NCBI GenBank assembly: GCA_019262145.1
Contig: CP076745.1
Span: 1,175,093-1,239,092, forward strand
Reading direction: 5' to 3'
DNA length: 64,000 bases
DNA from: Candidatus Methanogranum gryphiswaldense
GTDB lineage: Archaea; Thermoplasmatota; Thermoplasmata; Methanomassiliicoccales; Methanomethylophilaceae
This document shows, piece by piece, positions 36,675 through 57,300 of the stretch. Position 1 is the first letter of the stretch. Every line of letters begins with the position of its first letter. The notes under the pieces were generated by a model that was given only the letters and a program-made list of their open reading frames with translations, was not told where the DNA came from and did not search any database. The position numbers and the translations under genes were made by a program.

Positions 36675-36809
36675 ATGATTCGCACCTATTTGGCGTACTA
36701 TGTAATAATATTTAATAAAATCGTATATTCAAAGTAACATATAATCTTAAAATTATATTACTTATAAATACTGAGAAAATATGAGCATTCCTAAAGATAG
36801 GTGAGTGAT

Positions 36810-37883
36810 TTGGAAGACCCGAACCCAAAAAATACCTACAAAACTAACTCTTTCAAAAAAATATCACTTATATTCTTCATAGCAGTGATGCTTTGCCTAT
36901 TAGTGATATTTACATCATTCATAGGTACCGATGTCTCTTTTACCCGCTCCTATGAGGTCATAATGGATCACATATGTGGTATTACATACGCCCCGGGAAG
37001 TCCAGATTGGTGGGCGGATTACTACATCTGGAACAATGTCCTGCCTGGTGTCGTAATGTGCATAATTGCAGGAGCTGGCCTCGCCATTGGCGGATGTGTT
37101 ATGCAAAGTATGATGGGGAATCCTTTAGCAGACCCTTATACTACAGGTATATCATCTGGTGCCTGTCTGGGAGCCGTTACCGCCATAATAATGGGATTCT
37201 CATTCTCAACGGTAGCTGGAGAATATGGTATCATCACCAATGCGTTCGTATGCGCATTGATACCTGCGATCATCATAGTCCTATTCTCAAAATACATAAA
37301 TAACTCACCGGCGACCATGATCTTACTGGGCACTGCAATATCCTACTTTTTCAATGCATTGGTCACGTTCATAATGATCGGGACGGATAGTGACACACTC
37401 CAATCAGCATTCCTATGGCAGGTAGGATCCGTGACAAATGCCTCGTGGAGTGACATCCCAATAATGCTCACCATTGTGGTGATATCGTCGCTGGCCGTGG
37501 AATTGGCATCTAGAAAATTTAACATACTGGCATTAGGCGATGATAGTGCCAAAAGCCTTGGTCTTGATGTTGAGAACTTCAGAATATTGTGCCTTATACT
37601 CCTTTCCGTACTTATTGCTTCTATAGTGAGTTACACAGGCATAATCGGATTTGTTGGACTTACATCGCCACATATTGCTAGATTCTTGATCGGCGGTAAC
37701 AATAGATTCGTAATACCCGCCTCAATGGCGATAGGCGCACTTATGCTCACATCTGCCAACGTTATCGCCCGTATGTTGACTTCGACTGCAGACATACCGA
37801 TAGGCGTGATAATGGCTTTCATCGGCAGCCCCATATTCCTATATCTGGTAATAAGAAAAAAATCAGACAGAGAGGTGATCTGA
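36810..37883 (+). CDS. FecCD/BtuC-type ABC permease, pair A first gene
   Basis: About 357 residues with nine or ten membrane helices and the family motifs LPGVVMCIIAGAGLAIGGCVMQ, GNPLADPYTTGISSGACLGA and GIIGFVGLTSPHIAR. The start is taken as TTG 36810 because GGTGA lies five bases upstream; GTG 36801 is the other candidate. TATA-like element near 36767. No palindromic operator is seen here. The adjacent gene is a second permease, so the transporter is probably a permease heterodimer. Confidence 0.88.
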   Translation: MEDPNPKNTYKTNSFKKISLIFFIAVMLCLLVIFTSFIGTDVSFTRSYEVIMDHICGITYAPGSPDWWADYYIWNNVLPGVVMCIIAGAGLAIGGCVMQSMMGNPLADPYTTGISSGACLGAVTAIIMGFSFSTVAGEYGIITNAFVCALIPAIIIVLFSKYINNSPATMILLGTAISYFFNALVTFIMIGTDSDTLQSAFLWQVGSVTNASWSDIPIMLTIVVISSLAVELASRKFNILALGDDSAKSLGLDVENFRILCLILLSVLIASIVSYTGIIGFVGLTSPHIARFLIGGNNRFVIPASMAIGALMLTSANVIARMLTSTADIPIGVIMAFIGSPIFLYLVIRKKSDREVI

Positions 37884-37966
37884 TCACCGATACGGCCCAG
37901 ATATTCAAAGAAAAATATCTTAAAAGTAATCGCCAAAAGATACTATTCATAGCAATATGCATAATA

Positions 37967-38947
37967 TTGGTCGTATTAGCTTTCGGATACACATTGACGA
38001 TAGGTTTCTTTAAAATCGGGATTATTGATACTTATAAAGTCATAATAGATCATATAACCGGAAATATCACTGATGCTAGAGCAGACAATATAATCTGGAA
38101 CACACGTCTTCCCGAAGCAATAATGGCCGTTGTCGCCGGTGCATCACTTGCGGCCGCTGGTGCCGTCATGCAAACAATGATGCGCAATCCCCTTGCAGAT
38201 CCCTATATGATGGGTGTATCATCGGGTGCATCCCTCGGAGCTTCGGTTGCAATCATCTTTGGCATCTGCATATTACCTGGCATTGCCGGTGACAACGCCA
38301 TCGTGATCAACGCTTTCGTTCTCTCACTGTTGCCTACAGCTTTGATACTAGTAATGTATCGGAAGAGAAGCATGACGCCTACAAGGATGATATTGTCGGG
38401 CATTGCAATAATGTATGTTTTCTCTGCGATAACGACACTTTTAATGGTCACTGCATCATCCGAAACACTCGATGAGATCTACAGATGGCGGGTTGGAACA
38501 CTATCCGGTATAGAATGGTCGTGCATACCTCTTACAATAGTAATTACTCTATTGGGATTGTTATTCTTGATGTTCCAGTACAGAAAATATGATATACTGT
38601 CCACAGGCGATAAAATTTCTTTAACACTTGGCGTCGACCCGAAAAAGGTCATACTTTTCGGTAGCGTCGTAATAGCGCTTATGACCGCTACGATAGTGAG
38701 CTTCACAGGTACTATTGGATTCATAGGACTTGTTGGACCGCACATAGCTAGGATGTTCGTCGGCTCCGATTCCAAATATCTGATACCTGCATCCGCATCT
38801 TTTGGAGCCCTATTCTTGCTTTGTGCCGATTCCATTGCTAAAGTATCTGGATCTTTAGGATTGCCAGTAGGCATTATCAGTGCCCTGATCGGCTGTCCAC
38901 TTTTTATCATCATACTCATAAAATTAAATCATAAAGTCTGGGCATAA
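37967..38947 (+). CDS. FecCD/BtuC-type ABC permease, pair A second gene
   Basis: A permease of the same family (LPEAIMAVVAGASLAAAGAVMQ, RNPLADPYMMGVSSGASLGA, GTIGFIGLVGPHIAR). The first canonical start, TTG 37967, would cut into the first membrane helix. The frame is open upstream to the end of the previous gene and encodes a plausible N-terminus (ITDTAQIFKEKYLKSN). An AGGTGA site at 37873-37878 points to initiation near an ATC at 37883, a very unusual start codon. The full protein would then be about 354 residues, normal for the family. Confidence 0.88.
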   Translation: MVVLAFGYTLTIGFFKIGIIDTYKVIIDHITGNITDARADNIIWNTRLPEAIMAVVAGASLAAAGAVMQTMMRNPLADPYMMGVSSGASLGASVAIIFGICILPGIAGDNAIVINAFVLSLLPTALILVMYRKRSMTPTRMILSGIAIMYVFSAITTLLMVTASSETLDEIYRWRVGTLSGIEWSCIPLTIVITLLGLLFLMFQYRKYDILSTGDKISLTLGVDPKKVILFGSVVIALMTATIVSFTGTIGFIGLVGPHIARMFVGSDSKYLIPASASFGALFLLCADSIAKVSGSLGLPVGIISALIGCPLFIIILIKLNHKVWA

Positions 38948-39015
38948 TTAGTTCAATCAAATTTTAGTTTCTGCTTGTTCGTTTTATGATTGGGGCGCCG
39001 TTGATATTTTATATA

Positions 39016-39032
39016 TTGGCTTATACATCCAA
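39016..39032. promoter_or_regulatory. Operator, TTGGA-N7-TCCAA family (cobN-like gene)
   Basis: TTGGCTTATACATCCAA, one mismatch to the core. It fills the space between the TATA-like box (39005-39016) and the leaderless ATG at 39038. Confidence 0.65.
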
Positions 39033-39037
39033 CATAT

Positions 39038-42000
39038 ATGAAGATCAAAGTCGTGTCTGTATCGGTTCAAAGCTCTGATGCACGTTCCCTGACAGAACCC
39101 TTGAAAAAAATGGGAAAAGAACTGGATCTGGAATATGACATATACTGTGTAAACTGTGAAGATGCAGACGAAGATCTGCTGATATACCAGGAGCTTGAAA
39201 GAAAGACCAGAGATGCGGATTTCGTATTCATACGATGTATGGCCGATGTCTCGAGATTCAACAAATACGAAAAATACGAAAAAGCATTGAAAGAATGCGA
39301 TGGATTCGTTTTCCTTAACTCTGGAAATCTAGAAGTTACGATGATGCACCGTGATTTATTCAAAGGTTCAGATGATGACTTCATCCTTTTGAGAAATTTT
39401 GCAATGAACAGAGGGCCGGAGAACGACCATGGACTTCTACGTTGGGCCGCCGTGGCACTGGGTTTAACTAATTTACCTGTACCGGCTCCGGTAGAGCAGA
39501 GATCGTCTGGAATATATCATCCAAATTTTCCAAAGGATGTCACAGCCGATCACTATTTTAAAACACTCACACCTAGAAAATTAAAGATCGGGATAATGTT
39601 CACCAGCAGTCTGTGGTCATATGACAATATGGACCACATCGACTCACTCATAAGATGCCTTGAGAGCTATGAAATGAATACAATACCCATTTTCTTCTCG
39701 GCTACATCTTTTAGTGTAGACGGCGTTGAAGGCACAAGATCCAGTGTAGAAAAATATTTCATAAAAGATGAAAATGTGATCGTTGATGCTCTCATAGTAT
39801 GCACTCCTTTTTCACAACTTGTAAACTCCAGAAAGATCCAAGGCGTAGGAACAAAAGATTCAGAGAATTACTACCACACATTGTTGGACGTACCTGTGAT
39901 ACATGCCATTAGTGTGACAGGAGATTATCACGATTTCGAACAAGACCAAATAGGTCTAGGAAAACATGATATTTCTGCCAATGTAGCATGGCCAGAGATC
40001 GACGGGCAAATAATTGCTGTACCGATATGCTACACTCCAAAAAAGGGCGGATTAAAACGGGCCGTACCGATACAAGACAGGATAGAGCATATATCTCGTC
40101 TTGCGAAAGGATGGGCAACACTGAGACATAAGCCGATCTCGGAAAGAAAGGTCGCTATACTTCTATATCAATCACGTCCCAACTCTGGTAACATAGGCGG
40201 AGCTGCAGGACTGGATTCCATTGAGAGTGTATCGGATCTCATGAAAAAAATGTACGATCTGGGATATCATGTTGAAGGCGTTCCTGACTCTGGAAAGGAA
40301 TTGATAGATGAGATATTGAATGGCGTCACAAACGATCTTGATAATATTTCATCAGAAAATATGAGAAAAAAAGCTGCAGACCTTGTAAATTCAAAAGAAT
40401 ACAAACAACAATTTTCGAATATCCCTGAATTTGACCAGATCATGACAAAAAATGATTGGGGAGAACCGCCGGGAACAATATGCATAGATGGAAATGAAAT
40501 CGTGATACCTGGCCTCATAAAAGGAAATATTTTCATCGGATATCAGCCACTAAGAGGATGGGCCGATAAGATGGAATCAAACTGTCATGATCCCACACTA
40601 TTCGCACAACATCAGTATATCGCTTATTACAAATGGATAAGAAACACCTTCAAAGCAGATCTTCTTATGCACATAGGCACACATGGAACTTTGGAATGGC
40701 TTCCGGGAAAAAATGTGGGACTTTCTGAAAAATGCGATCCCGATCTTATACTTGACGGCCTTCCAAACCTATACCCTTACATAATTGATGACCCAGGAGA
40801 AGGAATACAAACCAAGCGTAGAACAGAATCGGTTGTCATTGGACACATGTGCCCTACTATGGCACGCGCTGGTATATATGAAGAATTGGACCAAGTCAAT
40901 ATCCCTCTTCAAGAATATTTCAAATCAAGAAACATAGCTTCACAGGATAGAAAGGATGTCATGATCTCGCAGATATATGAAGCTGCAAAGGAACACGATC
41001 TTTTAAGCGACCTTGGCATAACAGAAGACCCGGGCTCTCAAGGATTCGAACCTTATGTCGGCAAACTTCATGATTACATCACTGAGATCAAAGATGCATT
41101 GATCAGAGCCGATCTTCATGTTTTAGGAAGATCCCCGAAAGAACATCACATGGACGAAACCGTATACTCCCTGATGAGATTGGATAACGGTGGAATACCG
41201 TCCCTCCGTTATTCTTTTGCAGAGAACATGGGTATCGATCTCAGAAAAATAATTGATGATCCGTCTGGTACATCCAATGGGGAAGTCAATAGTATTGCAA
41301 TAGATCGGGTCGATGACGAACTTCAGGCATTCATAATAAAAATGAGGGAAATGGAATATGACCGGATAAAATGCTTAGAGGAGATCCAAAGAAGATACAA
41401 TACTGTCTCTGAAAAACTCATTGAATCAATATCCTACACATGCGATACGCTTGTGCCTAATATACTAAGGATGACAGACGAAATCGATAACATCATGCTC
41501 GGACTCGATGGAAGATATGTACTCCCGGGTCCTTCTGGGGCTCCTACCCGCGGTAACGCCTCGATACTGCCAATGGGAAGGAACTATTATGGACTGGATC
41601 CTGACACTGTCCCCAATCATGCGTCATGGGTGATTGGCAGCAAGATGGCAGACCAGATGATCGAACATTATGTTAAGGAAAAAGGAGAATACCCTCGTGA
41701 GATCGGATTCATACTCTGGGCAACTGACACGATGAAGACGGGTGGAGACGACATATCGTACATCCTTTGGCTCATGGGCGTGAAACCCATATGGTCAAAA
41801 GAAGGTGGACAGGTAATAGATCTGGAAGTGATTTCGCTTGAAGAACTTGAACGTCCGAGGATAGATGTTACCGTCCACATAACTGGGCTTTTCAGAGACA
41901 CTTTCCCTAACCTTATCGATCTGATAGACACTGCCGTAAAAATGGTCGGCGACCTAGATGAATCTGAAGAGGACAATGCTTTGGCGGCAAATCTCAGAAA

Positions 42001-42787
42001 AGATATGATCGATAGCATTGCCAACGGCCTAAGTCCTGAGGAAGCTAGAAAAAAGAATTCCGTACGTGTGTTCGGAGCCCCTCCTGGGGCTTACGGCACT
42101 GGTGTGAACAAGATGATCGAATCCAGCACTTGGAAGACCGTCAACGACCTTGCAGACATGTACATCGACTGGTGCAGCCATGGATATGCAAAAGGAGACT
42201 ATGGCATGAACCTCAAGGATGAATTCATCAAAAGATTCAGCAAAGTGAGTGTCACGGTCAAGAACATGCCAGACAGGGAAATAGACCTATTGGACTGCGA
42301 TGACGTCTATGAATATCTGGGTGGAATGAATGCTTTCGTACGTGCATATGGCAAAAAAGATGCGATATCTGTTATGGGGGACAGTTCCGACCCCAACAGA
42401 CTAAAGATAAGGGATACCGCAGAAGAGTGCAAATTCGTTTTCAGAAGCAAGATATTGAACCCAAAATTCATGTCAGGACTTAAGGAACATGATTACCGCG
42501 GAGCATCAGAACTTGCCAACATTACGGAATATGTTATGGCCTGGGACGCAACATCAGATATTGTAGACGATTGGATGTATGAAGGGATGGCAGAAAAATT
42601 CCTATTCGATGAAGAAACACAAAAATGGATGCAAGACGTCAATATACACGCCATGATGAATATCCTTAATCGTCTTCAAGAGGCAATAGAAAGAGGCCTA
42701 TGGAATGCATCTGATGACATGAAAGATAGGATCAAAGACCTATACATGAAAACGGAAGAAAAAATAGAAGAAGTCACAGATCGCTGA
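39038..42787 (+). CDS. CobN/BchH-like metal chelatase large subunit
   Basis: A 1249-residue protein, the normal length of CobN-type chelatase subunits, which bind the tetrapyrrole and receive Co, Mg or another divalent metal. Core motifs include GGAAGLDSIESV, PLRGWADKME, the signature MHIGTHGTLEWLPGK, and FGAPPGAYGTGVNKM near the C-terminus. It is probably cytoplasmic. A TATA-like box 27 bp before ATG 39038 implies a leaderless transcript controlled by the operator at 39016. Partner ATPases are encoded from 43158. Archaeal CobN usually serves B12 synthesis, but no other cobalamin gene lies nearby, so another macrocycle is possible. Confidence 0.93.
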   Translation: MKIKVVSVSVQSSDARSLTEPLKKMGKELDLEYDIYCVNCEDADEDLLIYQELERKTRDADFVFIRCMADVSRFNKYEKYEKALKECDGFVFLNSGNLEVTMMHRDLFKGSDDDFILLRNFAMNRGPENDHGLLRWAAVALGLTNLPVPAPVEQRSSGIYHPNFPKDVTADHYFKTLTPRKLKIGIMFTSSLWSYDNMDHIDSLIRCLESYEMNTIPIFFSATSFSVDGVEGTRSSVEKYFIKDENVIVDALIVCTPFSQLVNSRKIQGVGTKDSENYYHTLLDVPVIHAISVTGDYHDFEQDQIGLGKHDISANVAWPEIDGQIIAVPICYTPKKGGLKRAVPIQDRIEHISRLAKGWATLRHKPISERKVAILLYQSRPNSGNIGGAAGLDSIESVSDLMKKMYDLGYHVEGVPDSGKELIDEILNGVTNDLDNISSENMRKKAADLVNSKEYKQQFSNIPEFDQIMTKNDWGEPPGTICIDGNEIVIPGLIKGNIFIGYQPLRGWADKMESNCHDPTLFAQHQYIAYYKWIRNTFKADLLMHIGTHGTLEWLPGKNVGLSEKCDPDLILDGLPNLYPYIIDDPGEGIQTKRRTESVVIGHMCPTMARAGIYEELDQVNIPLQEYFKSRNIASQDRKDVMISQIYEAAKEHDLLSDLGITEDPGSQGFEPYVGKLHDYITEIKDALIRADLHVLGRSPKEHHMDETVYSLMRLDNGGIPSLRYSFAENMGIDLRKIIDDPSGTSNGEVNSIAIDRVDDELQAFIIKMREMEYDRIKCLEEIQRRYNTVSEKLIESISYTCDTLVPNILRMTDEIDNIMLGLDGRYVLPGPSGAPTRGNASILPMGRNYYGLDPDTVPNHASWVIGSKMADQMIEHYVKEKGEYPREIGFILWATDTMKTGGDDISYILWLMGVKPIWSKEGGQVIDLEVISLEELERPRIDVTVHITGLFRDTFPNLIDLIDTAVKMVGDLDESEEDNALAANLRKDMIDSIANGLSPEEARKKNSVRVFGAPPGAYGTGVNKMIESSTWKTVNDLADMYIDWCSHGYAKGDYGMNLKDEFIKRFSKVSVTVKNMPDREIDLLDCDDVYEYLGGMNAFVRAYGKKDAISVMGDSSDPNRLKIRDTAEECKFVFRSKILNPKFMSGLKEHDYRGASELANITEYVMAWDATSDIVDDWMYEGMAEKFLFDEETQKWMQDVNIHAMMNILNRLQEAIERGLWNASDDMKDRIKDLYMKTEEKIEEVTDR

Positions 42788-42789
42788 GA

Positions 42790-43032
42790 TCATTTGTCCT
42801 TTTGATCTGCATCTTCACTTCCATAACGCTCTTTGTAAGTTTCCGACGGAGACCTCATATAGATCAAAGAGGCAGATATCAGTACGAATAAAGTAAGTGT
42901 TGACCCCAAGAAAGAACTCCAAAGAAGAAGCATATCGGGATCGTCACCGAGAGTAAGTATGCATATCGCCAACATTACAAAAAACAAGGATACTACGATT
43001 GTCGAAAAAATGGCGATTGTCTTCTTTTCCAT
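42790..43032 (-). CDS. Small two-helix membrane protein
   Basis: An 80-residue protein with two hydrophobic segments (about residues 7-27 and 35-58) and a highly charged C-terminal tail (KERYGSEDADQKDK). ATG 43032 lies about 25 bp from a minus-strand TATA-like element near 43057. It is convergent with the CobN-like gene, with stops 2 bp apart. No family recognised; it may be an accessory of the cluster. Confidence 0.6.
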   Translation of the reverse strand: MEKKTIAIFSTIVVSLFFVMLAICILTLGDDPDMLLLWSSFLGSTLTLFVLISASLIYMRSPSETYKERYGSEDADQKDK

Positions 43033-43119
43033 ACACAAGATAATGCATATCTGAAATATAATCTATTTTGCAGACCACAGAATTATTTTTAAGGTCTATA
43101 TCCCACAAAGATATATTTA

Positions 43120-43136
43120 TTGGATTAATCATCCAA
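43120..43136. promoter_or_regulatory. Operator, TTGGA-N7-TCCAA family (chlI-like operon)
   Basis: TTGGATTAATCATCCAA. It lies directly downstream of the TATA-like sequence ATATATTTAT and 21 bp before the chlI-like ATG. Confidence 0.75.
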
Positions 43137-43157
43137 CATCATTACAAGGTGTAAAGA

Positions 43158-44192
43158 ATGTCGATCGATGAACCAGTACTTTTTCCATTCACGAGTATAG
43201 TCGGCCAAGAGAATATGAAAAAAGCACTTCTTTTGAATGTAATAGATCCCAGTATCGGAGGAGTGCTCATCAAAGGGGAAAAAGGTACTGCAAAATCCAC
43301 GACCGTGAGGTCGATGGCACAGATATTGCCTTCGCGCGTAGTAGTGAAAGGCTGTCCATTCCGTTGCGATTTCTACAATGAAGAAAGATATTGCCCATAC
43401 TGTCGTAAACGTGTGGCCGACAATGAAAAACTAGAACCTATATCTGTACCAATGAGGGTGACAGAACTTCCGTTAAGTTCCACGGAGGACAGGGTATCTG
43501 GAACATTAGATCTGGAACATGTCCTTAAAACAGGTGAGAAGAAATTCGAGCCAGGTGTACTTGCAACTGCGAACGGCAATATCCTCTATGTCGATGAGGT
43601 CAATCTTCTGGACGACCATCTTGTGGATCTCCTTCTCGATTCTGCGGCAATGGGCATCAACTATGTGGAAAGGGAGGGCATATCATTTGCACACCCAGCA
43701 AGATTCGTTCTCATTGGTACGATGAATCCTGAAGAAGGGGACCTCAGACCTCAACTTCTAGATAGATTCGGATTGTCCATAGATATTATTGGGGAACGGG
43801 ACGTAAAGAAAAGAGCTGAAGTGGTAAAACGCAGACTATCATTCGATATGGATCCAAAAAAATATGTAGATTCTTGTTCCAAAGATATAGATGTAATGAG
43901 AGCGAAGATCATCAGAGCCAAAGAGATATTACCGACAATTGAGATAGATGATGACTTTGTCGATATGGTTGTATCCGTGATGATACATTTCGGAGTAGAC
44001 GGCCATAGGGCAGACATCACACTCATGAAGGCCTCAAAGGCCAATGCCGCATTGGAAGGAAGAACGAATGTCACTAAAGAGGACATATACGCTACAGCAG
44101 AACTCGTTCTGTCCCACCGCTTGAAAAGACGGCCATTCGAAGACTCTAGCCTCGACCAAGAGGAGCTAAAAAAATGCCTGCAGAGCCTTTGA
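43158..44192 (+). CDS. ChlI/BchI-like AAA+ chelatase ATPase
   Basis: A 344-residue AAA+ subunit that drives metal insertion with a ChlD-type partner and a CobN/ChlH-type subunit. Walker A is [10 protein letters not shown] (residues 39-48). A four-cysteine insert (C66, C70, C79, C82) follows, as in many CobN-associated ChlI proteins. The Walker B segment [12 protein letters not shown] and sensor region [19 protein letters not shown] are intact. An AAGGTG ribosome-binding site lies seven bases before the ATG. It overlaps chlD by 19 bp. Confidence 0.94.
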
Positions 44193-46060
44193 CGTGCATT
44201 TATCCAATATCTGCGATCGTAGGCATGGAGAATGCGAAGATAGCGTTAGAATGTGCACTCATAAATCCTTCTATCCATTCCGTACTTTTGCGTGGAAGTG
44301 AGGGCACTGCAAAAAGCACAACCGCACGTGCAATAGCTGGAATAACATCTAAAAAGGTTATAACTTGTCCTCTGGGAATATCAGAAGAACAACTTTTCGG
44401 AGGTCTTGATCTGGAAAAGGCCATGAGGACCGGAAAGACCGAATCTGATGCGGGACTTTTAACAAAAGCAAACGAGAATATACTTTACATAGACGATGTG
44501 AATCTTATGGAAAAGACAACATTGGCATCGATATTCGATGTTGTTCTTACAGGTATGGCCAAAGTAGAAAGGGGACCAATATCAAGGACGTACTCATGCA
44601 ATACGATCCTGATAGCAACCATGAATCCTGAAGGTTCTGACCTAGACCCACACATGTTGGATAGATTCGATCTATGTTCATATATTGAACCAACGGATGA
44701 AATATGCCGCAAAGAAATCTTGAATAGAAATATTGACTTCTGTAACGATCCCATAGCTTTTTCAAAACTTTACAAAAAAGAAGAAAATGAGACCATTGCA
44801 AAAATTAGAAGAGCCGAACAAATCCTACCAACGGTCACAATATCGGATGAGATAATATTGATAATTTCCGAACTATGCATAAGACTGGGCGCAGATGGAT
44901 GCCGCGGTGATATTTCAATGGTAAACTGTGCAAGAACGCTTGCAGCCATGAATGGAAGAGACGAGGTCATAAGAAAAGATGTGGAAGCAGCAGCCATACT
45001 TTGTCTAGCGCACAGACGCAACAACAATCCGCCTCCTCCTCCCAAACAACAGACACCAGAGAATCAAAAAAACGATCAAAACGAACTTCCATCAGAACAT
45101 AATCAGAAAGAAGATCAGAACTCCCCTGAACCCCCTCAAATCGAAAAAGACGATCATAATAACGAATCCGTTGAACCTGAAGAACAAGAATTACCGGATA
45201 TTGATGATATCATGTTCGAGATAGGCAAACAGTTCCGCGTAATTGACTACCTTGATTCTTATGAAAGATTGCCTTCCAGAACAAAGACCCGCAAAGGTCG
45301 CAGAGCTATCGCTGAGAGCGGTGACGGTACAGGGAGATATGCACGCTCCAGGATCCCGTTCGGTCAATCCAAGGACATAGCATTTGATGCTACTATACTG
45401 GCGGCTGCCCCCTATCAAAGAACCAGAGAAAGCAATGGATTATCCATTGTCATCAACAAACAAGACCTACGTGAAAAAGTGCGTGAAAGACGTAGCGGAT
45501 GCACATTGATCTTCCTTGTCGATGCCAGCGGTTCATTGGGAGTAAAAAGAAGGATGGCGACTGTAAAAGGAGCCATATTGTCCATGTTGCGTGAAAGTTA
45601 TGTGAAGCGCGATAGGATCGGACTCATTGCTTTCAGAAGGGATTCAGCCGATGTCATCCTCCCACCTACCAGATCGGTCGAGTACAGTTATAAGAAACTG
45701 GAAGAATTACCAACTGGTGGAAAAACCCCATTGGGAGAGGCATTGAATAAGGTCGATGACTACATGAATTCATATGCCAGGTGTCATACCGGTGAAAGAT
45801 GTTTTGTGATTCTGGTAACAGATGGGAGAGCGAATGTACCGCTCAAAGAAGGCACAGATGCTAACGATGAAGTACAGAGAATAGCGAAAAAGATCAAGAT
45901 ACCAGGAATAAGATGGATAGTGGTGGATGCAGGCATAAGTTACCCTCACTTCGATAATGCAGAAAGACTTGCGGAAAACCTTAATGCTAGATACTTCAGA
46001 TTAGAAGATCTGGATGCCGACCGTTTCGCTAAAAACATTAAATCTGCAATAGATTCATGA
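44174..46060 (+). CDS. ChlD/BchD-like AAA+ and von Willebrand A chelatase subunit
   Basis: A 628-residue protein in three parts. The first 285 residues are an AAA+ domain with an intact Walker A (GSEGTAKST). A proline- and acid-rich linker runs from about residue 285 to 345 ([11 protein letters not shown]). The C-terminal VWA domain has the MIDAS motif DASGS near residue 450 and [13 protein letters not shown] domains bind the large chelatase subunit through a metal ion. The AAA+ site is more complete than in plant ChlD. Translation is probably coupled to the overlapping chlI-like gene. Confidence 0.94.
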
Positions 46061-46156
46061 TATGTGTCTACCGTTTATCATCGTCTCTTCTCGACCTTAT
46101 ATGGTAAAGATAAAATCAGAAAATTAAAAATTGTAAAGGGTTTTTATTAGCTGTTT

Positions 46157-47455
46157 TTAATTGGAGGTCGCGGCAATCATATCGCTTGTAAGCACGAATA
46201 TGCCATCGGTGGTCACATCATACCCTGACTCATGTAGATTGTCAACGAAGTTATCGATAAAGGTCTGATGGACCTGTGCTCCGTAATCGCTTCCGAAGAG
46301 ATCAGGATAGAATATTGATGCCATATATGCGATCCTAACAGGAACTGGCATATTACCGTTCAATATCAGGTAATTGCCATCCTCATAAGCATCCATTGCT
46401 GTGAAATATTGCGAATATGTATCCCATATCGTTACCAATTGCTCGGAGGTGTATGTGCCATACCCTATACTCCTCACATGTACTATGTAATCTGCCTGAT
46501 ACTTACTTTCCAACAACCATTCGTCTCCGATATTGAATCTCTTTGTCGTCTCCGACCAATCTGCAAGATTTATAGCGCCTGCAAGTTCAGTGGCGGCATA
46601 GTAATCGGATGATGTTCCACCGACATAGTTGGTCATTGTAACACTTAGTGCGGTCACACGATCGTCATCAGAGAGGACATCCGATCCAATCTTGGATTGC
46701 ACATAATCTATGACCTCGTCACAAAACTGTGCATATGCATTGGCACGATCCTCACACTGAAGTAAATATCCTAATGTGATGACACCGCTGATAGATTCGA
46801 TACCATCTGAAGCCGATATCCTTACAACATCTATTCCTGCCGTCTCAAAATCAGAATAATTTGTTAGAAATGATGAACTATCTGAAGTTATTATTGCAGA
46901 GACTGTGTATTTTGATACTTCCTCCACATTGGCCTTGAATAGGCTGTCACTTACAGTAGGTAGATCTACAATATCCGAATAAAGTGTACTGTCTATAGTA
47001 CCACCAGATATACAAACGATATCCTCTTCGGCTCCAATCGATTTCATAGCGAGAAGGACACTGGTCCCAACAATGCACGCAGAAGTTATAGGATAACTTA
47101 CCTGACCTTGTAAAAGATTGCCACCGTAATAATAATCATAATAGATCTCCATGGATTCACGATCTATCATCTTCTCGACCATATCGATATCAGATTGGTC
47201 GACCTTACCGTCCAGATTGGCATCTGAATAGGTGGTAGCTTCAAGCTCACCAGATATTACCTTCTCCAATGTTGCCACATCATCCTCATCCAAATAATCA
47301 TCGTTATTCGCATTACCGTATATCATAAGACGACCTGTATCATCATCAGATCTGTAGTTGCTACTGTCATTACTATTATTCAAAAAATAAAGACCCGTAC
47401 CTGCAGCTACTACGACCAAGATAACGACAACTGCAATCAATTTTGTATTTGCCAT
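46157..47455 (-). CDS. FecB/BtuF-type binding protein with dockerin-like domain
   Basis: A 432-residue surface protein. It has an N-terminal membrane anchor (residues 5-25). Two dockerin-like calcium loops lie at about residues 48-100 (NANNDDYLDEDDV and DANLDGKVDQSDI), and a substrate-binding domain follows to the C-terminus. ATG 47455 is chosen because GTGAG lies just upstream and because MAN-K-IAVVV matches the paralogue at 35349; the longer frame starting at 47521 would run over the promoter and operator. Divergent from permease pair B. Confidence 0.82.
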   Translation of the reverse strand: MANTKLIAVVVILVVVAAGTGLYFLNNSNDSSNYRSDDDTGRLMIYGNANNDDYLDEDDVATLEKVISGELEATTYSDANLDGKVDQSDIDMVEKMIDRESMEIYYDYYYGGNLLQGQVSYPITSACIVGTSVLLAMKSIGAEEDIVCISGGTIDSTLYSDIVDLPTVSDSLFKANVEEVSKYTVSAIITSDSSSFLTNYSDFETAGIDVVRISASDGIESISGVITLGYLLQCEDRANAYAQFCDEVIDYVQSKIGSDVLSDDDRVTALSVTMTNYVGGTSSDYYAATELAGAINLADWSETTKRFNIGDEWLLESKYQADYIVHVRSIGYGTYTSEQLVTIWDTYSQYFTAMDAYEDGNYLILNGNMPVPVRIAYMASIFYPDLFGSDYGAQVHQTFIDNFVDNLHESGYDVTTDGIFVLTSDMIAATSN

Positions 47456-47464
47456 ATGTCTCAC

Positions 47465-47481
47465 TTGGATATAACATCCAA
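47465..47481. promoter_or_regulatory. Operator, TTGGA-N7-TCCAA family (binding protein)
   Basis: TTGGATATAACATCCAA. It is 10 bp from the binding-protein ATG and about 20 bp downstream of a minus-strand TATA-like box (about 47501-47509). Confidence 0.75.
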
Positions 47482-47703
47482 TTGTATAATCTGATTGTGA
47501 TATATAAAATCGATGAGACAATAATTCGATATGAAAAATATGCTATAAACTAAATAATTACCATCAATTAAAACCATTAAAACATTTGATTCAGATATGA
47601 AAATAACAGTTCATTTTTGCTTCAATATTATTACATGATAATGCATGAAAACAAATAAAAAATCCAACCATAAAGAGGATTATATACATCTTTGTCAATT
47701 GCG
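47482..47703. other. Divergent promoter region between two operators
   Basis: AT-rich spacer with two outward-facing TATA-like boxes (about 47501-47509 minus, about 47681-47688 plus). No gene is seen. Confidence 0.55.
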
Positions 47704-47720
47704 TTGGAGCAATAATCCAA
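47704..47720. promoter_or_regulatory. Operator, TTGGA-N7-TCCAA family (permease pair B)
   Basis: TTGGAGCAATAATCCAA. It overlaps the predicted start site, about 27 bp downstream of the TATA-like box at 47681. Confidence 0.7.
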
Positions 47721-47800
47721 TTATATAAAATGCATTGTACGACCACAATATAAATCGAAATAATGCAAAAAAAACCAATTCGACAAAAATAGGAATGACC

Positions 47801-48883
47801 ATGGATAACGAGAATGATAAGATTACCCTTAGGGAGAATTACCATAGTTATACCATAAGAAAATTACTTTTCATTGCAGTAACCATCATTGCCATTTTTA
47901 TAATCGCAGGTGTGGCATTAACATTAGGCGGCCGGGACATAGGGTTCGTGCAAGTCTATCAGATCCTATTTGATCACATATTGGGCGCCACTTACACACC
48001 CGGAACCGAAGAATGGTGGGACGATTATATTGTCTGGAGCGTCAGACTCCCCCGTATCCTGATCGCAATCGTTGCCGGTGCTGGACTTGCCATAGGTGGT
48101 GCAGCAATGCAGGTTGTGGTGAAAAATCCATTAGCAGACCCATACACAACAGGAATATCCGCGGGAGCTGTATTCGGAGTTGCCATAGCACTTGTTTTAG
48201 GTTTTACTGCTGGATCAACTATTGGCGATTACGGACTTGTTATCAATGCATTCCTGTTCGGCCTGATCCCAGCGGGAGTGATAATAATCATATCAAAATT
48301 CACGAACACTTCCCCTGCAACCATGATACTTGCCGGTATAGCAATGTCATACATGTTCACTGCACTTAGTACACTTCTTCTTGTATCTGCAAATACGGAG
48401 ACCATACAACAGGCATATCTTTGGCAGATTGGAAGTCTCGAGAACGTAAATTGGTCTGACCTTCCATTGATGTTCGTTATAACGTTGATTGGTGGCATAT
48501 TCATGATGTTCTCCACAAAAAAATTGAATATCCTTACACTTGGAGATGACAGTGCCAGAAGTCTGGGACTAGATGCTGAGAATTTTAGAATTCTTGTTTT
48601 GATAATCCTTTCGATAATGACCGCAAGTGTGATTGGATTCATAGGAATAATCGGATTTATTGGCCTTATATCTCCGCATATCGTTAGAATATTCCTTGGC
48701 TCCGACAATAAATATGTATTGCCTGCATCAGCAATATTCGGTGCAGCCTTCCTTCTATTGGCTGATCTGATATCCAGGGTCATTGTATATCCTGGAGAAG
48801 TGCCAGTGGGTGTAATAATGTCCTTTATTGGCGGCCCGCTCTTCCTGATATTGATATTACGTTCTAAAAAGGAGATGTGGTAA
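47801..48883 (+). CDS. FecCD/BtuC-type ABC permease, pair B first gene
   Basis: About 360 residues with nine or ten membrane helices. The motifs LPRILIAIVAGAGLAIGGAAMQ, KNPLADPYTTGISAGAVFG and GIIGFIGLISPHIVR match the family. ATG 47801 is seven bases after AGG, so it is preferred over ATG 47795 and upstream in-frame starts. It is paralogous to the pair A gene at 36810, with near-identical motifs. No dedicated ATPase gene follows, so it probably shares the ATPase at 34245 or 32121. Confidence 0.9.
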   Translation: MDNENDKITLRENYHSYTIRKLLFIAVTIIAIFIIAGVALTLGGRDIGFVQVYQILFDHILGATYTPGTEEWWDDYIVWSVRLPRILIAIVAGAGLAIGGAAMQVVVKNPLADPYTTGISAGAVFGVAIALVLGFTAGSTIGDYGLVINAFLFGLIPAGVIIIISKFTNTSPATMILAGIAMSYMFTALSTLLLVSANTETIQQAYLWQIGSLENVNWSDLPLMFVITLIGGIFMMFSTKKLNILTLGDDSARSLGLDAENFRILVLIILSIMTASVIGFIGIIGFIGLISPHIVRIFLGSDNKYVLPASAIFGAAFLLLADLISRVIVYPGEVPVGVIMSFIGGPLFLILILRSKKEMW

Positions 48884-48953
48884 TATTACAACATCGATAC
48901 CTAATTTTTCTGATTTTAAAAATACATATTACAAGTATCTTTCAAAAAAACTG

Positions 48954-49970
48954 ATGTTTGTGATATTGTGTCTAGTAATAGCTTTCTTAGCAATGGGGCT
49001 AGAACTATCTTTCGGAAAATATGATATCGGATTTATTGAATCTTATCGCATACTAATAGACCATATCTTGGGAGTTGTGCCAATAAGTGAAGCTGAAAAG
49101 ATGAAAGATTATGTTATCTGGGACTTACGTTTTCCACGCGCGATTGCTGGATTGGCCGTGGGTGCAGGCTTAGGTGTGTGTGGTGCTGCCATGCAAAGTG
49201 CTTTGAAGAATCCTCTTGCAGACCCATATACTACTGGTATTGCATCAGGTGCATCATTCGGAGCATGTTTAGCGATAATACTTGGAATAAGTCTGATACC
49301 TGGCCTATATAGCGAATCAGCCACCATGATGAACGCATTCATTTTTGCATTGATACCTGCAGCAATGATAATCATCATATCAAAATTCAAAAAGAACATA
49401 ACCCCTGCAGCGATGGTATTAATCGGCATTGCAGTCATGTACATATTCACAGCTGCAACAACGATGCTGAAAGTTACCGCCTCAGAAGAATCCCTCGCTG
49501 AAATATACATCTGGAACATTGGTACATTAGGAAAGGCCAGCTGGAGTAACGTCTGGTATATGGTCGTTGCAGCATTACTGGGGATCATAGCATTCCAAAT
49601 ACTTGCAAAAAAACTCAACGTGTTGGTAATGTGCGATCAAGGTGCAATAACATTAGGAGTTAATCCCAAAAAAACAAGATTGATAACACTAGGTATCGTA
49701 TCTTTGGTCACTGCTGTGCTTGTTGGATTCACAGGAACAATTGGATTTGTTGGATTGGTAGCACCACATGTCGTAAGGATTTTCCTGGGATCCGATAACA
49801 AATATCTCATTCCCGCTTCTGCAGCCTTTGGCGCAATGATGCTCCTTCTAGCAGATTGCATCGCAAAGAGCGCAGGATCCACAGGATTACCGGTCGGTAC
49901 CATTACAGCACTTATCGGTGGACCACTTTTCCTATATTTGCTTATCAAACAGAGTAAATCAGCATGGTAA
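48954..49970 (+). CDS. FecCD/BtuC-type ABC permease, pair B second gene
   Basis: At least 338 residues. The family motifs are FPRAIAGLAVGAGLGVCGAAMQ, KNPLADPYTTGIASGASFGA and GTIGFVGLVAPHVVR. ATG 48954 is the first canonical start, but the frame is open back to the previous stop. The upstream stretch resembles the N-terminus of the pair A second gene (I-T near the start, a basic pre-helix segment). GGAGATG at 48871-48877 would suit initiation at ATT 48885. The pair A gene shows the same anomaly. Confidence 0.88.
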   Translation: MFVILCLVIAFLAMGLELSFGKYDIGFIESYRILIDHILGVVPISEAEKMKDYVIWDLRFPRAIAGLAVGAGLGVCGAAMQSALKNPLADPYTTGIASGASFGACLAIILGISLIPGLYSESATMMNAFIFALIPAAMIIIISKFKKNITPAAMVLIGIAVMYIFTAATTMLKVTASEESLAEIYIWNIGTLGKASWSNVWYMVVAALLGIIAFQILAKKLNVLVMCDQGAITLGVNPKKTRLITLGIVSLVTAVLVGFTGTIGFVGLVAPHVVRIFLGSDNKYLIPASAAFGAMMLLLADCIAKSAGSTGLPVGTITALIGGPLFLYLLIKQSKSAW

Positions 49971-51013: not shown

Positions 51014-51030
51014 TTGGATGTATTTTCCAA
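51014..51030. promoter_or_regulatory. Operator, TTGGA-N7-TCCAA family (ABC-2 operon)
   Basis: TTGGATGTATTTTCCAA. It lies just downstream of the TATA-like sequence ATTTATTATATG and 11 bp before the likely TTG start at 51042. It overlaps an ATG at 51018 that is therefore unlikely to be the start. Confidence 0.7.
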
Positions 51031-51041
51031 TTGGTGATTTA

Positions 51042-51905
51042 TTGGACGACATCATATCGGTCAAAGGACTTTCCAAGGCTTTCAATAAAAAAACAGCCGT
51101 AGATCATATTGACCTAAATGTGAAAAGAGGGGAAGTGTTTGGATTTTTAGGACCAAACGGTGCAGGAAAAACAACAACGATCCGATTGATTACAACGTTG
51201 GAAAACAAAGACTCAGGTACTGTGATCATTAATGATTACGACATTGATAAAGACCCCATAAAAGCAAAAACAAGCATCGGCGTGATACAACAGCAGATCA
51301 GTCTTGATAATGACCTTACAGTCATAGAGAACATGATATGCCATGCAAAATATCATAAAATGTCAAAAAAAGAAGGAATGGAAAAAATTGAATACCTGAT
51401 CAATTACCTTGGGGTTAGCGAATACAGAGATTACAAAATAACTGCCTTGTCCGGTGGTTGGAAAAAAAGAGTCTCCATCGCATGTGCATTGATACATAAT
51501 CCAAAGGTGTTATTCCTTGACGAACCTACAGTCGGATTGGACATTGGAGCAAGAAGACTTATCTGGGACATTGTCAGAAAATTGAATTCCGATGGTACCA
51601 CCATATTTCTGACCACTCACTATATCGAAGAAGCAGAGGCACTTTGCGATAGGGTCGCCTTCATCAATCACGGAAAGATCGTGGTCGTAAACACGCCTGA
51701 AGAACTATGTAACATTGTGGGATCCACAGCAGTTGAATGTTTTGACCAAATGAAAAAGACAACTTATTCGTACTTCGATAACAGAGAAAAGGCGAATGAA
51801 TATGCCAATACCCTTGATCCAAAAAGTACAGTCACTGTAAGGAATACCAATCTTGAAGATTGTTTTGTAAAAATGACTGGCGACTCGGTCGGTGAACAAA
51901 AATGA
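51042..51905 (+). CDS. ABC-2 type transporter ATPase (DrrA/NodI-like)
   Basis: A 287-residue ATPase. Walker A is GPNGAGKTT, the signature is LSGGWKKRV, Walker B is LFLDEPTVGLD and the H-loop is in LTTHY. TTG 51042 is chosen as start because GGTGA (51033-51037) precedes it and the ABC domain begins at once (DIISVKGLSK). It overlaps the permease gene by 4 bp. It is the only ABC-2 transporter in the regulon and may export a product or a metal-free ligand. Confidence 0.92.
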   Translation: MDDIISVKGLSKAFNKKTAVDHIDLNVKRGEVFGFLGPNGAGKTTTIRLITTLENKDSGTVIINDYDIDKDPIKAKTSIGVIQQQISLDNDLTVIENMICHAKYHKMSKKEGMEKIEYLINYLGVSEYRDYKITALSGGWKKRVSIACALIHNPKVLFLDEPTVGLDIGARRLIWDIVRKLNSDGTTIFLTTHYIEEAEALCDRVAFINHGKIVVVNTPEELCNIVGSTAVECFDQMKKTTYSYFDNREKANEYANTLDPKSTVTVRNTNLEDCFVKMTGDSVGEQK

Positions 51906-52651
51906 TCGACAATCTAAAGGAGATCTCCAGTGTTGCATGGGGCGATATGCGCTTCCTAAGACATAGTGCCCTCAGCGTACTTGTGATGAGCCTGATGAGC
52001 CCACTTTTATATCTTTTGGCATTCGGATATGGATTAGGAAATGGACAGATAATCGATGGCGTATCATATATCGCATTCATCATTCCCGGTATCGTTGCTC
52101 TTACTGCACTTTCTGCATCGTTTTCGTCAACTTCGGCTAGAATGAATGTTCAAAGATTGTATTATCATAATTTCGATGAATTGATACTGTGCCCTCTAAG
52201 ATATTCATCAATTGCAATTGGAAAGGCCATGCTTGGGGTGGTGCGTGGTCTCATCAGTTGTGCAATAATATTCATCATCGGGTTATTCTTGGCCCCCGAA
52301 TTACATTTCACAATAGAATTTTTGATCACTTTGGTCGTATCATGTTTTACATTCTCCCTACTAGGAGAATCCGCTGCTTTGATAGCAAAATCCCATCAAA
52401 GCATGTCAACATTCAGCACTTTGGTTATATTACCCATGACATTCCTTTGCGGTACTTTCTTCTCAGTATCCTCTATGCCGGAATGGTTCCAAGCAATACT
52501 GTACTGTCTGCCGCTGACATATTCAAGCACTCTGATGAGAGAAAGTTCATTAGGATTAGATTACTCTTGGTTATTCCTCATTGTCTTAATAGCATTCGGA
52601 GTTGCATTATTGCTGTTCAACATCTATCTTATGAGAGAAAGAAAGATCTGA
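51902..52651 (+). CDS. ABC-2 type transporter permease
   Basis: A 249-residue integral membrane protein with six hydrophobic segments. It is of the DrrB/NodJ class: a cytoplasmic N-terminus, then SVLVMSLMSPLLYLLAFGYGLG, IPGIVALTALSASF and a C-terminal CGTFFSVSSMPEWFQ motif. It pairs with the overlapping ATPase gene. The substrate is unknown. Confidence 0.9.
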   Translation: MIDNLKEISSVAWGDMRFLRHSALSVLVMSLMSPLLYLLAFGYGLGNGQIIDGVSYIAFIIPGIVALTALSASFSSTSARMNVQRLYYHNFDELILCPLRYSSIAIGKAMLGVVRGLISCAIIFIIGLFLAPELHFTIEFLITLVVSCFTFSLLGESAALIAKSHQSMSTFSTLVILPMTFLCGTFFSVSSMPEWFQAILYCLPLTYSSTLMRESSLGLDYSWLFLIVLIAFGVALLLFNIYLMRERKI

Positions 52652-53198: not shown

Positions 53199-55364
53199 AT
53201 GATACAAATAGCAATTTATGGAAAAGGAGGAATAGGAAAATCTACAGTATCGTCAAATATTTCATATTCTCTTTCACAAAAAGGAAAGAAGGTTCTGCAG
53301 ATAGGATGTGATCCCAAACATGATTCCACTAGAGCTCTTTTGGCAGGAAAAGAACAATCTACAGTACTCAACTACATAAGAAATACACCTCCCTATGACA
53401 GGCATCTCGAGGATATTGTTCTTGATGGGGTCAATGGAATAAAATGCGTGGAAGCAGGAGGTCCAGAACCTGGGATAGGTTGCGCTGGCAGAGGTATCTT
53501 GAGTACATTCGATACCCTGAAGAAACTCGGCCTCGACGATATGTGCTTTGATGTGAAACTGTATGATGTCCTTGGAGATGTGGTATGTGGGGGATTCGCA
53601 GTTCCTCTAAGAAATGAATATGCAGACGGAGTATACCTAGTGACATCGGGCGAATTTATGTCATTATATGCTGCAAACAACATACTCAAAGGAATTAGCA
53701 ATTTTGATAGGGGAATTCCCAGAGTGGCAGGCATAATCTTGAACTGTCGCGGTGCAGATGCTGAATATGATACTGTAAAAAGATTTGCAGATGCGGTCGA
53801 TCTTCCAATAGTAGCGTGCATTCCAAGGAGCAAACTTTTTGCAGATGCTGAAAGAGCAGGAAAGACCGTAATGGAAATGTTTCCTGACTCCGATGTTGCA
53901 TATGAACTTAACAAGATCTCCGAAAATATCCTGAATATAGTGAACGGCAAATCCAAACTACTGGATTCAAAACCATTAAATGATCATCAAATGGAACAAA
54001 TAGCAAAAGGAGAAACAGTAAGAAATAGTACTGCTGATCTCTTGAGTATCAAGAACGAAATTTGTCGAACGTGTGCTAGAACCACCAAAGAAAAGGTCAC
54101 AACAGAAGAGAAGATACTTTCATCGTGTGCCACATCTGGCGCAGTACATGGATGTTCTTCGGTCATAGATTCCATTGTTATAATCCATGGCCCCCGCAGC
54201 TGTGCACATATAATGTCATCATCAAAAAATCTAAGCGAAATAAAAAGAAGAAGCAACCATATCCATAATTTTAATCCTCAATCAATGAGAATAATATCCA
54301 CAGATATGGACGATACAGTATCTGTGTTTGGTGGAGCTGGACTTCTTGAACAAAAAATACGCGATTCGATACTTGAAGGCCATCACAACATATTCATTGT
54401 AACATCATGCGTTTCAGGCATAATCGGAGATAATGTGATCGATGTCGTCAATGCTATCAGCAATGAACATCCTGACATGTATTTCAGAGTGGTAGAAGCT
54501 GATGGAAATATTCTTGGAGACTGGGAAGCAGGTTACATTGAATCTGCCAACGCACTCTTGGACATGGTAAATAACACTCTAGAACCTGAGATGAGAAAGG
54601 TAAACATCCTTGCAGAAAGATATTTCTTCAAACAAGGAGAAAACAAAGATAACGAGATATTCGACCTTTTCCGCCCATATGGAATAGAAGTCAACTGTAG
54701 ATTCATGTATGAATCCTCGATGGAATCTATCTGTAATTTCCGCTTAGGAAAAATGAATTACATCGTTGACAGTGATAGGGGTTCCATTAAAATTGCTCAA
54801 CTGGTAAAAAATAAATTGAACGTACCTGTAGACTTTGAACCACTTCCAATTGGTATAAGGGAATATCGCAGATTTTCTGAAAAAATTGGAAAACAGTTCA
54901 ACATTTCCGATATAGCCGAAAAAATAGCCAATGATGAAGAAAAGAAATATGATTCTGAGATCAGTAAACTAAGGACAAAATTAGTGGGAAAAAGGATCAT
55001 AATCGAAGATAAATTTACACAAAACGTAGATTGGCTTATCGAACTTGTTCTAGATCTAGGGATGGAGATCATTGTCGTCGGTGTCGGTCCAGTATATTAT
55101 TGGAAAGAAAAAAGACAGGAATCGATCTATGTTGCCATGGGCATCAAATTCAAGCACAATTATAGATTAGAAGAAATAACTTCAGATATCGTACTCTATT
55201 CGCCCGATATTGTGGCCTCGGATAGCGGACTCACCGAATTGGACGGTGTTTATCATATGACCTATTCTCGTCCAGGTCCGGGCCTTAACGGTGTTTTAGC
55301 ATATGGACGCAAATTCGTAGATTTGATTAGCGTTCCAAAAAAAGAAGGATGGAGGGACCTTTAA
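53199..55364 (+). CDS. Nitrogenase-like fusion: NifH/BchL-type reductase with NifD-type subunit
   Basis: A 721-residue fusion. Residues 1-270 are a dimeric Fe-protein type reductase with P-loop GKGGIGKST (8-16), GCDPKHDST, and cluster cysteines C95 (GCAGRG) and C130 (VVCGGFA). Residues about 289-721 are a NifD/BchN-like domain. Cysteines C319 (HGCS), C335 (HGPRSCAH) and C404 (TSCVSG) match the three cluster ligands of NifD. No cysteine is found at the position equivalent to the FeMo-cofactor ligand (YIVDSDRGS region), and the histidine position is shifted, so nitrogen fixation is unlikely. Relatives reduce tetrapyrroles (DPOR, COR, CfbCD). The fusion itself is unusual. The NifK-like gene overlaps its stop by one base. 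Confidence 0.92.
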
Positions 55365-56638
55365 TGACAATTAATAGAATATGCATGGACGGATTTACAG
55401 GTGCACTTTTGGCCGTAGAGAGTTTTAGCGATGGATGTGCTGTGCTCCACGGCCCTGGCGGATGTAGAAATTATCATACATTTTTATCATCTATGTGCTA
55501 CCCGCGTGCAAATCCTGGAGATTTCAAAAAATATTCACAACAATATTTCTTTGGTCAATCCAGAATACCTTGCACTTTCATTGATGAAGACAATTACATA
55601 AATGGGTCTGACAAGAAACTTGAGGAATGCATACCGCTGATCTGCAACATGAATGATTGTTTTGATGTATTCATAAAATCTCCTGGAGCGGCTCTTATCG
55701 GAGATAACATAACAGATTCGATAGAAAGATCTGGTTTTACGAATAAGGCAATGGCAATAGAAGAATCACTTATATCCCAACCTTTCTCTGCAAGTTACGA
55801 TCATACCATAAAATCCATACTCGAATGGAAATCTCCGAAAAAAAAGACCACTATACCCAATACTGTAAACATAATCGGTCTTCCGATTTCCAGTAATGAC
55901 TGGGAGGATGCACTCAACGATCTAAGGCTAATGCTGAATGAAATGGGCATTGATGTCATCTCCTCACCTGGTGCGGGATGCAGTTCATCGGATTTGGAAA
56001 GATCAACTGCAGCAGAATTCAATGTTTGTGTAAGTCCAGAATATTGCAGTAGGGTCGCCTCGTTCTACGATAAAGAATATGGTATTCCGACAATATTTTC
56101 AGAAATGGGTGCCCCCGTTGGATTTGATGCCACAGAAGGCTGGGCAAATAATATAGCAGAAAAAATGGAAGCTGATACTTCAATAATGACCAAACATGTA
56201 CACAAATATAGAGAAAGGGCTTTCAAAAGGATCAACGGCTCCCTATATTCACAAAGTACAAAATGTTGCAGATTCACAATAATGACAGATAGTTCTGTGA
56301 TGTATCCGTTGATGAAATGGTTATACAGCTATCTCTGCATGGTACCCATGAGCATATCTGCGGACCCGGGGGCTGACAAGAATATGATCGCATCAACGAT
56401 CAAATTCTTGGAAGATACAGGACTAAAAGAAGCATGGTATAACGATCCCGCAGCGAACAAAGTAGATTTCATGTTCACTGATGGACAGACAGCAGAGACT
56501 CAGATGATGATGGGTAACTGCAGGAAAGGAGTGGATATCGCTCTACCAAATCTTTCTCGTGCAAATTTCATTCCAAGACCCATATATGGCCTTAATGGTT
56601 CACTATTCATACTAGATGAGATTTTCAACAATCTTTAA
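55364..56638 (+). CDS. Nitrogenase-like NifK/BchB-type subunit
   Basis: A 424-residue partner of the fused NifD-like domain. Cysteines C25 (SDGCAVLHG) and C34 (HGPGGCRNYH) match the first two cluster ligands of NifK. The third position is KSPGAALIGDNI, with no cysteine, so a full P-cluster is improbable and a [4Fe-4S] cluster at the subunit interface is more likely. GGAGG lies 8 bases before ATG 55364, excluding a five-residue extension. The complex would be a heterotetramer with the upstream protein. Its substrate is unknown; tetrapyrrole or metallophore reduction is inferred from family and context. Confidence 0.88.
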   Translation: MTINRICMDGFTGALLAVESFSDGCAVLHGPGGCRNYHTFLSSMCYPRANPGDFKKYSQQYFFGQSRIPCTFIDEDNYINGSDKKLEECIPLICNMNDCFDVFIKSPGAALIGDNITDSIERSGFTNKAMAIEESLISQPFSASYDHTIKSILEWKSPKKKTTIPNTVNIIGLPISSNDWEDALNDLRLMLNEMGIDVISSPGAGCSSSDLERSTAAEFNVCVSPEYCSRVASFYDKEYGIPTIFSEMGAPVGFDATEGWANNIAEKMEADTSIMTKHVHKYRERAFKRINGSLYSQSTKCCRFTIMTDSSVMYPLMKWLYSYLCMVPMSISADPGADKNMIASTIKFLEDTGLKEAWYNDPAANKVDFMFTDGQTAETQMMMGNCRKGVDIALPNLSRANFIPRPIYGLNGSLFILDEIFNNL

Positions 56639-56686
56639 TCCAATCGAGAACTAAATCCTCTTATGAATCGTCATTGATATTTACCT

Positions 56687-56703
56687 GTGGATATATACTC
56701 CAA
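56687..56703. promoter_or_regulatory. Operator, TTGGA-N7-TCCAA family (isochorismatase-like gene)
   Basis: GTGGATATATACTCCAA, one mismatch to the core. It lies 9 bp before the ATG and overlaps the predicted start downstream of a TTGATATTTA TATA-like box. Confidence 0.6.
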
Positions 56704-56712
56704 TTGATAAGC

Positions 56713-57300
56713 ATGCCAATGCCTGAAAAAAAAGATAGGAAGTTAGCACTTGTTATAATAGATGTGCAAAAAAAATTTACAGGAGGCTCCATATCTGAAG
56801 AAGGCAACCTCGACAGCGTAGCAACGATAAACAGAGCTGTTGCTTCATTCCATAAAAATAAAAGACCGGTCATTTTTGTTCATTACGACGGTCCGTGCGA
56901 ATGTTCGCTATATGAAAAAGATGATGGTGACGAATATATTCAAGGCATCATATCAGATCCAAGAAACATCATCGTCCATAAAACACGCATGAACTCCTTT
57001 GTAGGAACAAAACTAGCGGATGTCGTGAAAGAATGTAAATGCGACAGCATACTCTTGGCTGGACTGGTCACTCAATATTGTATTATAGGGACATATTACG
57101 GGTCCTTTGAACACAACATCAGCCCGTATCTTCTGATCGGAGGAACAATATCCACTGATAATAAATTTGACAATGCCGCATATACCATTTGCAAAACATT
57201 CACAATGGATGAACTAGAAGAAAATCTAAGTACAACAAAAATACCCGAATTCACAATTTGTGGATCGGAATACCCTTGTTGTGAAATTATTAACAAATGA
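56713..57300 (+). CDS. Isochorismatase-like cysteine hydrolase
   Basis: A 195-residue member of the isochorismatase/nicotinamidase superfamily. The catalytic triad is visible as D17 (VIIDVQKKF), K in VHKTRMNSF and C in LVTQYCIIGT. Most members hydrolyse amides or vinyl ethers such as nicotinamide or isochorismate. Neither siderophore nor nicotinamide genes are adjacent, but control by the cluster operator ties it to the nitrogenase-like system. ATG 56713 is preferred over 56674, which would place the operator inside the gene. Confidence 0.85.
   Translation: MPMPEKKDRKLALVIIDVQKKFTGGSISEEGNLDSVATINRAVASFHKNKRPVIFVHYDGPCECSLYEKDDGDEYIQGIISDPRNIIVHKTRMNSFVGTKLADVVKECKCDSILLAGLVTQYCIIGTYYGSFEHNISPYLLIGGTISTDNKFDNAAYTICKTFTMDELEENLSTTKIPEFTICGSEYPCCEIINK

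Follow-up and report, generated by a model that had tools for sequence, protein, structure and literature searches.

Introduction

Accounts of nitrogenase-type catalysis usually let the Fe protein dock on its partner and leave again in each cycle. The Mo, V and Fe nitrogenases need NifD C275 and H442 together with six P-cluster cysteines. In DPOR (BchL, BchN, BchB) the reductase is likewise a separate protein; the cluster is held by three alpha-type cysteines and one beta ligand, an Asp contributed by BchB. CfbC and CfbD, which act in F430 biosynthesis in methanogens, are also separate proteins; they are without FeMo-cofactor ligands, CfbD has no K partner, and their substrate is Ni-sirohydrochlorin a,c-diamide. 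DPOR, COR and CfbCD are the characterised enzymes of the [4Fe-4S]-only class and act on tetrapyrroles (PMC7242693, PMC12552129).

Genes in which an Fe protein is fused to a NifD/E-like subunit have been noted before, in bacteria as well as in archaea. The same domain order with the same partner gene was reported in 2012 by Dos Santos et al. (PMC3464626), and a "fused nifH/nifE" was mentioned in 2014 by Borrel et al. for the archaeal order studied here (PMC4153887). A 2024 mSystems survey (PMC11237513) gives high confidence to the NifH-NifD/E fusion of Methanomassiliicoccales (cluster 443), and for Methanosarcinales and Methanomicrobiales it records composite as well as split forms. Where these reports treat the fusion, they do so in short mentions that assign no function, and neither an importer association nor a TAG codon at the hinge is brought up. 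The architecture is already known; added here are a ligand pattern of three plus one cysteines without cofactor ligands, a quantified link to FecCD-type importers, a bacterial counterpart in which H and D are not fused, and the TAG codons at the hinge.

Results

An in-frame fusion of Fe protein and NifD/E-like subunit

The window analysed is a stretch of 64,000 nucleotides from Candidatus Methanogranum gryphiswaldense, whose genome is a single contig of 1.52 Mb. As proposed in the original prediction, positions 53199-55364 of the plus strand hold a single ATG-to-stop frame of 721 amino acids that joins an Fe protein to a NifD/E-like subunit, while the opposite strand of this interval contains many stops. 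Both domains were recovered with Pfam models, PF00142 (Fer4_NifH) at residues 3-269 (296.8 bits) and PF00148 (Oxidored_nitro) at residues 310-677 (160.6 bits). The H domain (residues 1-262, 53199-53984) carries the P-loop GKGGIGKST at residues 8-16 and the cluster cysteines C95 (53481-53483) and C130 (53586-53588), as expected of an active Fe protein of the NifH/BchL/CfbC class; both cysteines, also named beforehand, are present in each of 53 fusion homologues. The D domain is reached through a linker of about 45 amino acids (residues 263-309, 53985-54125) (residues 310-721, 54126-55361). The junction had been expected at about 53970-54070, which is the right region but slightly too far 5'. 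The linker of the window gene contains a C-x-x-C motif (C289/C292, 54063-54074), and this motif or C-x-C occurs in about 19 of the 53 fusions, mainly near relatives of the window gene; judged from the motif, it is possibly a metal or redox site. An AlphaFold prediction of the fusion, computed from two sequences only, gave a mean pLDDT of 38.7, too low to read any geometry from.

In a search of PDB sequences, the best 60 of 126 matches were NifH, NifD/E and BchL-type proteins on separate chains, none of them a NifH-NifD fusion, and we found no functional study or characterisation of such a fusion in the literature. Both searches agree with the original prediction, which knew of no characterised enzyme with this order, although the architecture itself had been published.

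Cluster ligands and the NifK-like partner

Ligand positions were counted in a set of 53 fusions and in 59 sequences of K. The three NifD-like cluster cysteines expected in the D domain were indeed retained: C310 (49 of 53), C335 (53 of 53) and C404 (53 of 53) align with NifD C62, C88 and C154. At the NifD C275 column, Cys is not among the common residues of the 53 fusions, and His occupies the H442 column in only three of them; the window protein has Asp and Ser at these positions. A NifK-like gene of 429 codons (55349-56638, plus strand, PF00148) overlaps the end of the fusion by 16 bp. Such a gene lies directly downstream of 49 of the 53 fusions and nearby in 52, so that the family shows the arrangement previously described, with NifH and NifD/E in one frame and a NifK/N-like gene next to it (PMC3464626, PMC11237513). 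Every K protein (59/59) has a Cys equivalent to beta-C95, C39 in the window protein, whereas Pro replaces beta-C153 in 54 of 59, the window protein included. The window K also has C12 near the expected place of beta-C70, a rare feature (6/59). With three cysteines in D and beta-C95 as the only universal one in K, the six-cysteine set of a P-cluster is absent. Three cysteines from D, one from K and no cofactor ligands make a pattern that, in the aligned residues, resembles that of the [4Fe-4S]-only tetrapyrrole reductases and is unlike that of nitrogenase.

This pattern bears on two alternatives. The first is reduction of a sulfur compound, for which methylthio-alkane reductase and the isethionate nitrogenase-like enzyme would be the models; these enzymes do have transporters nearby (PMC12552129, PMC11423573). 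However, methylthio-alkane reductase has retained both a Cys and a His to bind its large Fe8S9C cofactor (PMC12552129), and the fusions lack both. Next to the fusion, we recognised no window gene of NifB type and none for sulfur metabolism; we regard this role as very unlikely. The second is nitrogen fixation or FeMo-cofactor assembly. Of the curated models, those for NifD and NifE-type proteins scored highest with the D domain (98 and 91 bits), far below their cut-offs, but the missing FeMo-cofactor ligands and a dedicated nif set elsewhere make such a role extremely improbable. The nif genes lie at about 417-424 kb of the same genome (L051:7427-13351), with NifH (444 bits) and NifE (599 bits) both above cut-off, so that nitrogen fixation by the host is plausible. 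A CfbD gene (453238-454284, 376 bits, above cut-off) is also present, with a CfbC-like gene near it at 450 kb. The fusion is therefore a third system, and with separate gene sets available we rejected both nitrogen fixation and F430 synthesis as its role.

Scores with models of the related reductases placed the fusion outside each of them. Those for DPOR and COR fell well short (BchL 200 against a cut-off of 345 bits, BchX 185 against 331), and BchB, although the best NCBIfam match of K, scored 56 against 490. The fusion shares with DPOR an H domain and a D/K pair with three alpha-type cysteines and one beta ligand, but the reductase is tethered, the beta ligand in K is Cys at the place corresponding to the Asp of BchB, and D is no close relative of BchN. 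Judged by its ligand pattern the system would work like DPOR and COR without being a member of that group. The H domain is near CfbC (324.6 bits, cut-off 402), whereas D scored 27.2 bits with CfbD (cut-off 268.4).

Distribution of the fusion and an unfused counterpart

Fusion-type best matches were found in 91 of 147 Methanomassiliicoccales genomes, complete chromosomes included and often with several copies per genome; this is a threshold count (best match E < 1e-84, dividing fusion-type from Fe-protein-only matches) that takes in some partial matches at contig ends. By family, 83 of 102 genomes of the host's own family had such matches, against 6 of 15 in a second family and 2 of 22 in a third. 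The search for the same domain order suggested in the original prediction recovered full-length homologues in many genomes of the order, with identities down to about 30%. In a sample of the phylum taken beyond the order, all matches were to separate Fe proteins. Scanning genome contigs with the fusion protein alone gave one locus, and a scan of viral contigs gave no locus. A maximum likelihood tree was built from 56 Fe-protein rows, and in it a branch with support 100/100 has all 45 fusions on one side.

Nothing in the window pointed to an artificial join. That sequencing or assembly had joined two genes is a negligible possibility, ruled out, together with chance and a local frameshift, by the same fused frame in many genomes, including full-length copies in other single-contig genomes (G071, G072, G077, G033, G034 and G036), and further opposed by the three independent published reports (PMC4153887, PMC3464626, PMC11237513). 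The fusion gene family is real and widespread, and its function is uncharacterised.

Relatives with two separate genes had been named beforehand as a sign of an artefact. One such relative exists: plasmid pTS1 of Treponema saccharophilum carries unfused H, D and K genes beside genes for a substrate-binding protein, an iron-type permease and an ATPase, yet the window gene is no artefact. The pTS1 system shares with the fusions the H-D-K order, a Cys at beta-C95 and a Pro at beta-C153 in its K-like protein, and an adjacent FecBCD-type importer. It differs in that its H groups with CfbC-like rows, outside the fusion group, and in that its H and D genes are separate and overlap by 8 bp, an arrangement from which a small indel could produce a fusion.

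Three irregular loci were observed in passing. In G085 (L124:3395-4570) a complete Fe-protein domain is joined without a frame change to the C-terminal half of an importer ATPase; a deletion or misassembly between adjacent genes is the probable cause. G073 (L085:12932-15508) has, besides one normal fusion, a D-K pair with no attached or adjacent recognised Fe-protein domain, which may borrow H from elsewhere. In G024 (L125:3427-5522), the H and D frames differ and overlap, as in a split or frameshifted copy.

Association with FecCD-type importers

Upstream of the fusion, the window contains two FecCD/BtuC-type importer permeases on the plus strand (47735-48883 and 48954-49970) and, on the minus strand, an importer substrate-binding protein (46157-47521) with a weak Peripla_BP_2 match below cut-off. 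A FecCD permease was found within 10 kb of 33 of the 53 fusions. Seven complete genomes together hold 12 fusions; 10 of these had such a permease within 8 kb compared with 1.2 expected, and random placement reached 10 in none of 5000 simulations; the simulation treats fusions as independent and ignores the shared ancestry of the genomes, so that the probability is approximate, while the effect is large. We consider this repeated adjacency of fusion and importer a good clue to function. The adjacency has exceptions. G071 has a fusion, no CobN in its genome and no FecCD within 120 kb, and one fusion copy of G034 lies 85 kb from FecCD; neither neighbour is thus obligatory.

The host genome has nine FecCD permeases above cut-off, five inside the window and a sixth 6 kb beyond it. 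Six of the nine are thereby gathered in an island of about 40 kb (from window position 29970-49970 to genome position 1245421), together with several substrate-binding proteins and the plus-strand chelatase-type genes at 39038-46060: CobN (39038-42787), ChlI-like (43158-44192) and ChlD-like (44174-46060).

Other neighbours were considered as partners. CobN was near one of 12 fusions at 8-10 kb against 0.4-0.5 expected, which is no enrichment, and given also its absence from G071 we rejected CobN/ChlID as functional partner. Upstream of the fusion lies a DrrAB-like ABC-2 exporter pair (51018-52651, plus strand; ATPase 51018-51905, membrane protein 51902-52651), whose link to the fusion is uncertain. 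Exporters of this type occur near some fusions, but the closest homologue stands beside CobN in G033, G034 and G036, and the exporter was likewise rejected as partner; CobN and the DrrAB-like exporter possibly form one unit. Downstream, 35 bp after K, is an isochorismatase-family hydrolase (56674-57300, plus strand) with relatives near 7 of the 53 fusions.

TAG codons at the hinge

Among the matches listed, eight full-length homologues carried a single in-frame TAG. In four of these, from three genera (G067, L123; G078, L120; G090, L059; G120, L079), the TAG falls at alignment position 272-280, the natural end of the Fe-protein domain; the other four have it elsewhere. In three of the four hinge-TAG genes no in-frame ATG, GTG or TTG was present between the TAG and the first conserved cysteine of D, so that production of D would need read-through. 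PylS was above cut-off in all four genomes; it was carried by all ten genomes tested, the host included. The window gene has no TAG at the hinge and is constitutively fused. In the hinge-TAG relatives both free and fused reductase may be made: termination would give a free Fe protein and read-through the tethered enzyme, with amber decoding setting the ratio. Such an adjustable link is a doubtful idea, as linkers may simply tolerate TAG best, and the hinge TAG of G067 could be a single CAG-to-TAG change. The genomes concerned are drafts, and we treat the hinge TAG as a lead.

Discussion

FecCD-type importers carry haem and B12 and also siderophores and other chelates. Because such importers include haem and B12 carriers, and DPOR, COR and CfbCD act on tetrapyrroles, we tentatively favour an ATP-driven, [4Fe-4S]-only reductase with a tethered Fe protein that would act on a metal chelate brought in from outside, with a tetrapyrrole as the likeliest kind; we hold this reading to be quite possible, if still short of probable. 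Two H domains would pair into an Fe-protein dimer that hydrolyses ATP and passes electrons of low potential to a [4Fe-4S] cluster, which three cysteines of D and one of K would bind where the two subunits meet. As happens in DPOR and CfbCD, the cluster would then reduce a substrate lying next to it. This substrate would be a metal chelate delivered by the adjacent FecBCD/BtuFCD-type importers, with a haem, corrinoid or porphyrin favoured. A point against this reading is that D scores nearer to the NifD/NifE-type models than to CfbD.

The main rival to the tetrapyrrole reading is reductive iron release, in which the Fe(III) of a siderophore or comparable chelate would be reduced after import and Fe(II) freed. 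The strong association of the fusions with an importer type that includes siderophore carriers would fit this too, and the annotation of the Treponema permease reads iron ABC permease. We know of no siderophore-reducing member of this fold, and we place iron release on the unlikely side. The characterised [4Fe-4S]-only enzymes of the fold reduce double bonds of tetrapyrroles (PMC7242693, PMC12552129).

The enzyme might instead serve a further tetrapyrrole step of the cell itself, towards a modified F430 or another corrinoid or porphinoid, importer proximity being secondary. The closeness of the H domain to CfbC and the CobN/ChlI/ChlD genes within the window speak for such a role, but the CfbC-like and CfbD genes are located elsewhere, several divergent fusion copies occur per genome, and CobN shows the distribution described above; we find it decidedly unlikely.

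The original prediction held that a covalent link restricts the docking cycle and fixes a 1:1 ratio. Each chain does carry equal H and D, but one Fe-protein dimer could still form per (HD-K)2. The tether may restrict the cycle, speed it up or do no more than balance the amounts, and in the relatives with a hinge TAG a free reductase may exist as well. The fused order is nevertheless relevant to reductase docking: a tethered family, often in several copies in methanogens related to gut lineages, lends itself naturally to testing if the Fe protein has to be released at all. From the association with importers, in turn, follows a substrate class that can be tested. It also bears on a question raised in print, namely how archaea use CobN/HmuS-like chelatase homologues and imported tetrapyrroles (PMC12583661).
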